Both the position numbers and the translations under genes were made by a program. The notes under the pieces are model-generated. The model did not search any database, was not told the DNA's origin, and saw only the letters and a program-made list of their open reading frames with translations. 64,000 bases of DNA from Rhizobium leucaenae USDA 9039 (lineage in GTDB: Bacteria; Pseudomonadota; Alphaproteobacteria; Rhizobiales; Rhizobiaceae). The stretch is from contig NZ_AUFB01000012.1 in NCBI RefSeq assembly GCF_000426285.1, forward strand, positions 62,001 through 126,000, written 5' to 3'. How positions within the stretch are numbered: position 1 is the first letter of the stretch; each line of letters begins with the position of its first letter. Below, piece by piece: positions 3,695-60,439 of the stretch.

Positions 3695-4272
3695 CAGCGC
3701 GCCTCCCCCGCAGGCGTTTCGGCATCAAGGGGCGCATGGGTCGGCACGTATGGTGTCGGATCCTCCATATCCCCGCGCATAACGGCGATCTTCTTGATGA
3801 TTTCGGAAACACCCTGCACCGCCAGCACAAGGAAGCCTGCCAGCAACAACGCCTTGCCCGGCCAGATGATCAGGCCGCCAGCACTGGACGAAACCTCGCC
3901 GGACATAAAGGACATACGCACATAGGGCACGAGATCATAGACCATTAAAAGCACGAAGGGCATGAGGAACAGGCAATGACCGAGCAGATCGATCCAGTGC
4001 TGGACACGCCGCGGCAAGGCACCGTAGACGATATCGATGCGGATGTGCTCGTTCTGCCCAAGCGTATAGGCGGCCGCGAGCATGAAGGCGGCGCCGAACA
4101 GATACCATTGCGCTTCCAGCCAAGCGTTGGACGAGGTGTTGAATACCTTGCGGACGATGGCGTTTCCGGCACTGACCAGCACGGCGATCAGAATGAGCCA
4201 GGAAACCGACTTGCCAATGATTTCCGTCACAGCATCTACGAGCCGGCTGAAGCCGAGCAATGCTCTCATCAT
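3694..4272 (-). CDS. TRAP transporter small permease subunit (DctQ-like)
   Basis: Small membrane subunit of the TRAP system, 192 residues, with four predicted membrane helices (around residues 17-37, 50-70, 92-112 and 140-160). It contains the AAAYTLGQNEHIRIDI stretch typical of DctQ. The open frame extends upstream to 4455, but the ATG at 4272 is preferred because a strong GGGGGAG site lies about 5 nt before it and the upstream part does not resemble the family. The gene is first in a two-gene operon with the large subunit. The binding protein is not in this operon. Confidence 0.85.
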   Translation of the reverse strand: MMRALLGFSRLVDAVTEIIGKSVSWLILIAVLVSAGNAIVRKVFNTSSNAWLEAQWYLFGAAFMLAAAYTLGQNEHIRIDIVYGALPRRVQHWIDLLGHCLFLMPFVLLMVYDLVPYVRMSFMSGEVSSSAGGLIIWPGKALLLAGFLVLAVQGVSEIIKKIAVMRGDMEDPTPYVPTHAPLDAETPAGEAR

Positions 4273-57753: not shown

Positions 57754-58614
57754 ATGAAGACGCCTTTTCCGCCCTTCGAGCCACATGGTCCCAACGACGA
57801 GGCGCGTGGGCCGCGCCTGCGGGAAATTCCGCTGCGGCTGATGGTACCGAATATGATCACCGTGTTGGCGATCTGCGCCGGTCTGACCGGCATCCGCCTC
57901 GCCTTCGAAAACCGCTACGAACTCGCGGTGGTGGCCGTGCTGGTGGCCGCTTTCCTCGACGGCATCGACGGACGCGTGGCGCGGCTGATGAAGGCCACCT
58001 CCAAGTTCGGCGCGCAAATGGATTCGCTTGCCGACATCGTCAATTTCGGCGTCGCGCCGGCGCTTGTCGTCTATGTTTTCCTGCTCGACCAGGCACGCTC
58101 GCTCGGCTGGATCGCAGCGCTGATCTATACCATTGCGGCCGGTCTGCGGCTCGCGCGCTTCAATGTCATGGCGGAGCGCGAGAACAAGGCGTCGTGGCAA
58201 TCGGAATATTTTGTCGGCGTCCCGGCGCCGGCCGGGGCGATGCTGGTGTTGCTGCCTGTCTATCTCGGCTTCCTGGGCCTAACGCCCACCAAGACCTTTG
58301 CCTATTGGGGTGCGGCCTACACCGTGCTGATCGGCTTCCTGCTGGTCAGCCGCCTGCCCGTCTGGTCCGGAAAAACGGAAAGCAGCCGCATCCGCCGCGA
58401 CCTGGTGCTGCCGATCATGCTTGCCCTCGTCGTCTATGTGGCGCTGCTGATGAGCTATACTTGGCATGTCATGGTGGTCACCGTCGTTGCCTATCTCCTG
58501 TCGTTGCCCTTGGGCGCCCGTTCCTGGACGCGCAAATATGGCACCTTCACCATCAACGGCCCCGCCGATCCTGACGTCGACGATTCAAACGACGACATCG
58601 GCCGGCATATCTAG
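57754..58614 (+). CDS. pssA: CDP-diacylglycerol-serine O-phosphatidyltransferase
   Basis: Membrane enzyme that makes phosphatidylserine; 286 residues with about eight hydrophobic segments. The CDP-alcohol phosphotransferase motif is visible: DGIDGRVARLMKATSKFGAQ then MDSLADIVNFGVAPA (about residues 69-104), matching DG..AR...G..D...D. It supplies the substrate for the psd product encoded just upstream, so the pair forms the complete route to phosphatidylethanolamine. Confidence 0.93.
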   Translation: MKTPFPPFEPHGPNDEARGPRLREIPLRLMVPNMITVLAICAGLTGIRLAFENRYELAVVAVLVAAFLDGIDGRVARLMKATSKFGAQMDSLADIVNFGVAPALVVYVFLLDQARSLGWIAALIYTIAAGLRLARFNVMAERENKASWQSEYFVGVPAPAGAMLVLLPVYLGFLGLTPTKTFAYWGAAYTVLIGFLLVSRLPVWSGKTESSRIRRDLVLPIMLALVVYVALLMSYTWHVMVVTVVAYLLSLPLGARSWTRKYGTFTINGPADPDVDDSNDDIGRHI

Positions 58615-58931
58615 CCCAAAATCAAGCACGATTCGAAGGCGACGATCATGGATTGCCGCCAGAAATCGAAGACGGCTGCCGCGACAAATGGTCATGTGGC
58701 CCCTATCGCCTCTGCAATCAGATACGGCTGCGCGAACGCAACTAATTAACGAAAAATAAACAACTAAATTAGATATAGTTTGCGTTAAATTTCGCGTAAG
58801 CCTCGCGAAATATGGTCGGTGTTTACAAAAGCTGATCGGCAAATGCCTTTGATTTGTCATGTTTTATGACAAAACAACGAGACGGGGCCGTGAATCAAAA
58901 ACACCCTAGGGAACACGTTGAGGAGTAACAC
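58615..58931. other. Gene-free stretch before the 46-residue protein gene
   Basis: This 317-nt gap has an AT-rich middle (about 58740-58800) unlike its neighbours. It holds the inverted repeat at 58853-58873 and the ribosome site of the small gene at 58932. The AT-rich part is a likely promoter region. Confidence 0.5.
58853..58873. promoter_or_regulatory. Inverted repeat upstream of the 46-residue gene
   Basis: TTTGTCAT and ATGACAAA (8 bp each, perfect) are separated by 5 nt (GTTTT). It lies 58 nt before the start codon, in an AT-rich stretch, and looks like a dimeric regulator site. Confidence 0.5.
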
Positions 58932-59072
58932 ATGACCAAGAAAAAAGACGAAACTGTACAACCACAAGCAAAGATCGACCCGACCCTGCTTTATCGTCCT
59001 CTTGGCCTCAAAGCCGTCTTGGCAGCACATCTGATGCTGAAAACCAAGCCGCTGAAGAAGAAGATCGCTTAA
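58932..59072 (+). CDS. Small basic protein of 46 residues
   Basis: The frame starts MTKKKDETVQPQAKIDPTLL and ends KTKPLKKKIA. It is preceded by GAGGAGT at 6-8 nt, a strong ribosome site, and followed by a hairpin (59092-59118). The middle (LYRPLGLKAVLAAHLML) is moderately hydrophobic, flanked by lysine-rich ends, so peripheral membrane binding is possible. I do not recognise a family. It is too short for length-based gene finding, but the ribosome site, the upstream inverted repeat and the downstream hairpin support it. Confidence 0.65.
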   Translation: MTKKKDETVQPQAKIDPTLLYRPLGLKAVLAAHLMLKTKPLKKKIA

Positions 59073-59091
59073 GCTTGCAGCATCTGCCGAT

Positions 59092-59118
59092 AACCCCGCT
59101 GATTGAACATCGGGGTTT
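59092..59118. terminator. Hairpin after the 46-residue gene
   Basis: A 7-bp stem AACCCCG / CGGGGTT with a 12-nt loop is followed by a short T/A stretch, 20 nt after the stop. It lies between converging genes and may serve both. Confidence 0.5.
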
Positions 59119-59147
59119 ATGGCAGCGCCGATCCGAATGAATGCCGT

Positions 59148-59912
59148 TCAGAGGAGGCTCAACTGGCCATCGCTGGGATCCGGCTTCTTCGACGGCTTGG
59201 CCGGAGGTTCGATTGTAATCGCCACCTGCAGCTCTGGCCCCATATTGGCGACCTTGTTGACGCGCTCCGAAACCGGAATCGCCTCAAAAAAATCTTCCTG
59301 AACCGGACCCATCAGATCCAGGACCTCACGCGGCTCCTGAGTCTTGCAATCCAGCCAGTGTGCAAAATCCTCCGGCTTGATGACAACGGGCATCCGGTCA
59401 TGAATAGGACGCATCGTTCGGTTCGCCGACGTCGTCAGGATCGCGGCGGTATCGACTTCGGAACCATCGGCCGACGACCAGGTCTCCATCAGGCCGGCAA
59501 AGGCGATGACGCCGCCGTGGCGCGGACGGATCCAATAGGCCTGCGATTTCTCGCCGCTCTCCTTCGACGGGCGATGCCATTCGTAAAAGCCGGATGCCGG
59601 AATCAGAATACGCCGATGACGCATGGCCGCCCGGAACGAGGCCTTGCCGATCACGGTTTCCGCCCGGGCATTGATCAACAGCGGAAATTCCTTGGGATCC
59701 TTCACCCAGGCCGGCGTAAAGCCCCAGCGAACTAGCAGCGCGCGACGATCCGGCAAGTTACTGCCCCGCTCCTGCCGATCGCCCGAAACGACGACGAGAA
59801 TTGGTTGCGTCGGGGCAATGTTGAAGCGCGCGGGAAAGTCTTCATGCTCGAGATAGCCGAGCAATTCCCGCACCTTCCTCTCCGTTTCCGTCAATGCAAA
59901 TCGACCGCACAT
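59148..59912 (-). CDS. SRAP (YedK/HMCES-type) protein
   Basis: SOS-response-associated peptidase-fold protein of 254 residues, which forms a stable covalent link to abasic sites in single-stranded DNA and shields them. The catalytic Cys2 follows the initiator Met (MCGRFAL), the conserved Asn and other pocket residues are in FNIAPTQP near residue 30 and LINARAETV near residue 80, Glu in ASGFYEWH near residue 107, and His in IHDRMPVV near residue 168. The ATG at 59912 is required to place Cys at position 2; the frame extends far upstream but cannot be the start. Confidence 0.92.
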   Translation of the reverse strand: MCGRFALTETERKVRELLGYLEHEDFPARFNIAPTQPILVVVSGDRQERGSNLPDRRALLVRWGFTPAWVKDPKEFPLLINARAETVIGKASFRAAMRHRRILIPASGFYEWHRPSKESGEKSQAYWIRPRHGGVIAFAGLMETWSSADGSEVDTAAILTTSANRTMRPIHDRMPVVIKPEDFAHWLDCKTQEPREVLDLMGPVQEDFFEAIPVSERVNKVANMGPELQVAITIEPPAKPSKKPDPSDGQLSLL

Positions 59913-59955: not shown

Positions 59956-60279
59956 TCAGTTGCGAGGGCCGAAGAGAATGATGGTTGCGCCCGCAAGGCA
60001 AACGGCCGCGCCAGAGATATCCCAACGATCCGGCGCCCGTCCTTCGACCAGCCATAGCCAGAGAATGGAGGCGACAATGTAGACGCCGCCATAGGCGGCG
60101 AAGGTGCGTCCCGCCGCATCGCTCGGCACCAGCGTCAGCAGCCAGGCAAAGAGTGCCAGCGACACAAGGCCTGGAGCAAGCCACCAGATCGGCTTTGCCA
60201 GCCGCAGCCATGCCCAGAAGGCGAAACAGCCGGCAATTTCGGCCAGCGCGGCGAGCGCGTAAAGTCCATAGGTCATCAT
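59956..60279 (-). CDS. YnfA/UPF0060 family membrane protein
   Basis: Small membrane protein of 107 residues with four helices, typical of the YnfA (UPF0060) family: [20 protein letters not shown] at the N-terminus, and [21 protein letters not shown] near residue 65. The family resembles small multidrug transporters. The start is the ATG pair at 60274-60279, which gives the usual length; an upstream start at 60360 would add a polar 27-residue stretch not found in the family. Confidence 0.9.
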
Positions 60280-60439
60280 GATTTGCGGCAGCCCGGCTGG
60301 CGGACCCGAATCGCCGCCATTCTCATTTGCGAGTAAAAGGGCTTCCCTCTGGCACAACAAGGGCCGTATCTTATGAAGTTGAAAGCTCCAGCACGCCTAT
60401 TCGTCGCCCGATATCTCCATCCGAACCCGACCTGGCCCA

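Follow-up and report, generated by a model that had tools for sequence, protein, structure and literature searches.

A 46-residue protein of Rhizobium leucaenae and an apparently undescribed microprotein family of the Hyphomicrobiales

The open reading frame at positions 58932-59072 (+ strand) of the window, by which we mean the whole analysed stretch of 64,000 nucleotides from R. leucaenae USDA 9039, is a genuine protein-coding, stand-alone small gene under purifying selection. By sequence comparison its product belongs to an apparently undescribed microprotein family, whose members occur in rhizobia and related bacteria of the order Hyphomicrobiales, which includes Rhizobium, Agrobacterium and Sinorhizobium. 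The former 'orphan' open reading frame has thus become a defined protein family: homologues occur across the order and a paralogue lies in its own genome, so the label given in the original prediction no longer applies. The sharply conserved core of the family and its ties to two kinds of proline-metabolism operon point to direct experiments.

Coding evidence for the 46-codon gene

The gene comprises 46 codons and is preceded by the Shine-Dalgarno sequence GAGGAG (58920-58925, + strand; read from the sequence), so that the predicted frame and its strong ribosome site were both found in place. The translation is lysine-rich at both ends, as had been described, and the conserved core DPTLLYRPLGLKAVLAA spans residues 16-32. 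Among the best 80 named loci the chosen start showed a Shine-Dalgarno match of 4-5 bases in 79 and of 3 bases in one, counts that are not independent because the starts were picked by the best Shine-Dalgarno match.

A genome search revealed a match to the 46-residue protein in 37/37 genomes of the same genus, and an identical (100%) protein in Rhizobium sp. SEMIA4064, the nearest named relative found. Comparison of 20 close tropici-clade sequences gave a dN/dS of about 0.10 (pS 0.43, pN 0.065), and the 15 microprotein genes of equal length among them differed 376, 244 and 1483 times at codon positions 1, 2 and 3, respectively. In the two shifted frames of the gene pN exceeded pS in the tropici-clade comparison. 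By region, pN was lowest in the core (0.042), compared with 0.095 in the N-terminal and 0.069 in the C-terminal tail. The original prediction had staked the gene on conservation of its frame in relatives and on unequal divergence of synonymous and non-synonymous sites; given the same-genus presence, the low dN/dS and the codon-position bias, both therefore hold. An antisense frame of 57 codons that overlaps the gene (58857-59030, - strand) was rejected, because the substitutions track the + frame.

Members, core and genomic settings of the family

A single-sequence search with the window protein detected members in 16/109 genera of the bacterial family. A profile built from 29 members (A1) matched 47/199 genomes of the bacterial family and 33/297 genomes of the order. 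With a 43-member profile (A2) the numbers were at least 85/151 genomes and at least 64/109 genera in the family search, and at least 101/297 genomes and at least 42/122 genera in the order search; these are lower bounds, because the candidates scored per genome were limited to 22 in the class and order searches and to 43 in the family search. At the sensitivity used, A2 revealed no match in the 288 other genomes of the class-wide sample, which include at least three of the same order. The genome samples of the different searches overlap. The window protein scored E-values of 2.0e-21 with A1 and 2.3e-14 with A2, which are not independent, since both profiles were built with this protein among their sequences. 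When 27,322 frames were reversed and shuffled as decoys, 0 matches resulted, versus 312 for the real frames.

In all, 184 distinct family proteins of 40-82 aa were gathered by similarity, an uneven sample in which 68 come from 30 same-genus loci and the best 80 named loci. They share a 17-residue core, D-L-x3-Y-[RK]-P-[LIV]-G-[LI]-x-A-V-x-A-A, which in the window protein begins with D-P instead of D-L. The tyrosine is invariant in the 43-member alignment. For the residue count one protein was left out, since its core could not be aligned; among the other 183, core positions 16 and 17 are alanine in 177 and 181 proteins, respectively, whereas the tyrosine in 183/183 holds by construction, because it served as the anchor.

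The original prediction could not place the product in a family, and indeed no existing family model fits it. Nothing convincing emerged when 1, 29 or 43 members were scanned with Pfam and NCBIfam models, when the 43 were compared with PHROGs, or when the PDB was searched with the 29-member profile. Weak Pfam matches (best 0.002, no Pfam family matching more than two of the 43 members) and one weak NCBIfam match (0.096, one member of 43) were taken as chance. One paralogue from the 'HYRPVAIRSVVAAH' group was compared with phage records and matched none of them, and a literature search with five core peptides revealed no paper containing any of them. In sequence records, the members of S. meliloti Ak57 (LZK74_22205) and of Shinella sp. 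PSBB067 are annotated as 'hypothetical protein'. The Shinella sumterensis member (CP132317.1; locus L301, 8001-8189), which lies between an SDR gene and P5C reductase, is without an annotated gene, so annotation can miss members of the family. The record of the S. meliloti Ak57 locus (L292; CP090106.1) is titled plasmid pSymB, yet is 3.72 Mb long and carries cysS; given the replicon sizes of the species, it may be a mislabelled chromosome.

In the window the microprotein gene is placed between psd-pssA on the same strand and a convergent SRAP gene, both assigned by Pfam. The pssA-like CDP-alcohol phosphatidyltransferase (57754-58614, + strand; PF01066) is the upstream neighbour in 39/47 same-family loci examined. 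The SRAP (YedK/HMCES-type) gene (59148-59912, - strand; PF02586) lies convergently downstream in 47/47 of these loci, a count from which 2 of 49 loci were left out for want of a motif match and both of which show SRAP in the neighbour search. A YnfA/UPF0060 family protein (59959-60360, - strand) adjoins the SRAP gene.

According to neighbour identities taken from Pfam and from record annotation, 161/184 family proteins lie in two conserved chromosomal settings. The first, with SRAP, cysS or pssA within 1.6 kb, holds 123 of the 184 proteins; in the second, with 38 of the 184, corA, pdxH, LysE or a class-III aminotransferase is found instead. This placement supports the family, as a match in sequence would not by itself bring it about. 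LysE is present in both settings, which suggests that they derive from one ancestral locus. The neighbours of the stand-alone copies (pssA, cysS, SRAP, corA, pdxH, LysE and the aminotransferase) have no pathway in common. Tandem pairs of diverged members were seen between cysS and SRAP in loci L039, L041, L049 and L250. Locus L256 has members at 2750-2923 and 3933-4055, the shorter one, with the core EDRYGQVGLKAVAGAIK, about 1 kb upstream, and similar pairs are present in L099, L103, L222 and L223.

A minority of the family, 13/184 proteins, is found in proline-metabolism settings, 7 beside putA and 6 in an SDR/P5C-reductase group, with no SRAP match nearby; a further 10/184 lie outside both the chromosomal and the proline settings. 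In five of the seven loci beside putA the copy is located between putR and putA, with 28-41 nt to the first possible putA start; in the other two it follows the putA match at a distance of 48-79 nt. The other six copies come after an SDR gene, five of them with a match to P5C reductase at -3 to 25 nt on the downstream side. Where no possible start is named, distances to putA, P5C reductase and SRAP refer to where tblastn matches end and not to the limits of annotated genes. One locus (L191) was placed with the SDR-P5C reductase loci solely on account of its SDR neighbours, and another (L293), which has an ALDH match, on account of its annotation. The genome of the window itself carries a second family member (contig 6, 253633-253773; L184), which is flanked by putR and putA, the nearest possible starts of the latter being 41 and 47 nt downstream. 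The presence of such sister copies in proline-metabolism operons makes the function of the family testable.

Non-coding sequences flanking the gene

A stretch of about 70 nt upstream of the gene (58802-58872, + strand), delimited by column identity, is conserved and is likely to be a promoter/operator region or a 5' leader. Among the 20 close sequences its identity was 0.88 at -125 to -55, with ten-base bins of 0.77-0.98 from -130 to -60, compared with 0.54 further upstream, 0.68 at codon position 3 of the open reading frame and 0.44 after the stop codon. The block is single-copy in its own genome, where the next matches have E-values of 0.4 or worse, and by eye it can be aligned, more weakly, in Agrobacterium.

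The block contains the perfect 8+8 inverted repeat TTTGTCAT-N5-ATGACAAA (58853-58873), 58 nt before the ATG, exactly as predicted. Its standing as a control site is more qualified. The window holds two matches to the repeat with up to three mismatches, one of them exact, versus 0.11 expected, and the proposed search for further copies revealed no second exact one in the genome. The idea of a regulon sharing the shorter 6+6 dyad TTTGTC-N9-GACAAA was set aside: the dyad occurs exactly only once in the genome of 6.68 Mb, and allowing up to one mismatch there are 16 sites versus 5 for a reversed-pattern control. In the best 80 named loci the full 8+8 repeat is kept in 2/80 and the 6+6 dyad in 26/80, which are not confined to a single Rhizobium group. 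The left half, TTTGTC, is retained in 66/80. Column identities, taken pairwise over the 20 close sequences, were 0.90-1.00 in the left arm and 0.49-0.90 in the right arm; the left arm is the most conserved part of the block and the only arm that is invariant in close relatives. Since the 6+6 dyad is present in sequences whose spacers differ, it could be a genuine site of two-fold symmetry in which the right half is weak, as judged from these alignments. The palindrome in the window would then be a local improvement of this dyad, the conserved unit being the block of about 70 nt.

A sigma-70 scan of 58600-59200 revealed nothing, and by eye the conserved block held no convincing -35/-10 pair. 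Inside the block there is a frame of seven codons (MVGVYKS, stop TGA; 58812-58835), whose [AG]TG-N18-TGA pattern is kept in 24/24 aligned sequences (the window and 23 relatives) and whose codon 7 encodes Ser in all sequences but one (Thr) despite AGC/TCC/TCA changes. As it is without a ribosome site and its changes at positions 1, 2 and 3 (516, 364 and 479) are without third-position bias, the frame was not regarded as coding.

Downstream of the stop codon, the 7-bp hairpin AACCCCG/CGGGGTT (59092-59098 and 59111-59117, + strand) is present as described, without a T-run, but it is not conserved, as the low identity after the stop indicates. Folding of this region in the window gave an MFE of -15.3 (z -1.9), and the 3' regions of 21 relatives had a mean z of -0.94, with 4/21 at -2 or lower. 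A terminator scan of 58600-59200 called none. Of the self-contained regulated unit that had been proposed, the stand-alone gene with its own conserved upstream region thus stands, and the 3' hairpin is not a fixed part of it.

Proposed mechanism, alternatives and known systems

An AlphaFold model of the microprotein shows helices at residues 17-20 and 24-37 and low-confidence tails; the model is weak (mean pLDDT 63.7, pTM 0.30). The 'hydrophobic middle' of the original prediction corresponds to a short predicted helix, but this contains K and H and by inspection does not look membrane-spanning. In none of six members tested was the 14-residue predicted helix more amphipathic than shuffles, which weakens a simple docking by a hydrophobic face. 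Net charge is not conserved in the family and ranges from -4 to +12, so different clades may do different things. This variation counts against the adaptor reading set out below, as do the lack of a common pathway among the stand-alone neighbours and the minority share of the proline settings.

A conserved 17-residue core with free tails, recruited beside soluble enzymes, fits best with an adaptor whose folding takes place on a partner protein. We consider the chances about even for the reading as a whole, in which this 46-residue, mostly disordered, basic microprotein of an apparently undescribed Hyphomicrobiales family acts as a cytosolic adaptor on a partner protein and is expressed through the upstream block. 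The protein would be cytosolic and, judged by its anatomy, act as an adaptor. The core would fold upon docking to its partner into a short helix, a turn at R-P/G and the 14-residue helix, and the tails would set specificity or location. The paralogues in putA and P5C-reductase operons would use this docking surface in the vicinity of the proline/P5C enzymes. The conserved upstream block would govern how the stand-alone copy is expressed, probably through a regulator that recognises TTTGTC and, in some species, also the mirror-image half. In a bolder version, which we regard as unlikely, the family members would be small subunits that partner amino-acid enzymes, and proline/P5C handling would be the revealing case: the co-encoded microprotein would bind, tune or scaffold PutA or P5C reductase, and the order-wide stand-alone gene would be a housekeeping ancestor acting on a related enzyme. 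PutA and P5C reductase are not known to have a small subunit of this kind.

Four other readings were weighed, and each is less well supported than the adaptor. Lysine-rich ends of the window protein and a net charge of +4 to +9 in 141/184 members would suit a small protein that binds nucleic acid through its tails; the conserved core, however, has few basic residues and 21/184 members have a net charge of 0 or less, which leaves this reading improbable. A membrane-associated peptide or type I toxin would likewise be short and basic with a hydrophobic centre, but K and H occur in the centre LGLKAVLAAHLMLK, which is rather short to cross a membrane, its hydrophobic moment (0.23) is no higher than in shuffles, the chromosomal position is stable and 58500-59300 shows no Rfam match at E-values up to 5, an overlapping antisense RNA antitoxin included, so that we hold such a role to be distinctly improbable.

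The two remaining readings draw on the neighbouring genes. A regulatory leader or upstream open reading frame, in which translation matters and not the product, would agree with those paralogues that end shortly before putA or P5C reductase, at the distances given above. Against it stand the conservation of the amino-acid sequence, as expressed in the low dN/dS, and the two paralogues located after putA; moreover, the window locus has no co-directional gene to control, because the next gene, SRAP, is convergent, as in all 47 loci examined. We therefore judge a leader function very unlikely. The constant presence of SRAP next door in the same loci could instead mean that the microprotein acts specifically with one of the genes beside the stand-alone copy, SRAP being the most plausible. 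This has the smallest chance of the readings considered here: SRAP is convergent and not co-directional, the 38 proteins of the second chromosomal setting lie by corA, pdxH, LysE or aminotransferase instead, and the proline-setting copies are without a nearby SRAP match.

Known systems offer partial likenesses. The putA-putR proline utilisation locus resembles the present case in the five paralogues between putR and putA, but the window gene itself is located elsewhere; a paper on Caulobacter PutR (PMC6168545) has 0 uses of the term 'small open reading frame'. A Ribo-seq census of S. meliloti (PMC10117765) also deals with conserved uncharacterised small proteins of the Hyphomicrobiales, and its accessible text names no family with the core of the microprotein. 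The closest functional parallel is the DUF1127 small proteins acting through PhoR (PMC12501420). They have a different core motif, and the Pfam model of DUF1127 matched neither the window protein nor any of the 29 and 43 proteins scanned. According to that paper, they also occur in E. coli and Rhodobacter, whereas the microprotein family was found only in the Hyphomicrobiales at the sensitivity used. As described there, however, DUF1127 proteins too are often shorter than 50 aa and present in several copies per genome in rhizobial bacteria, those of Agrobacterium and Sinorhizobium bind PhoR, and they act by protein-protein contact, the mechanism that we propose for the microprotein family.
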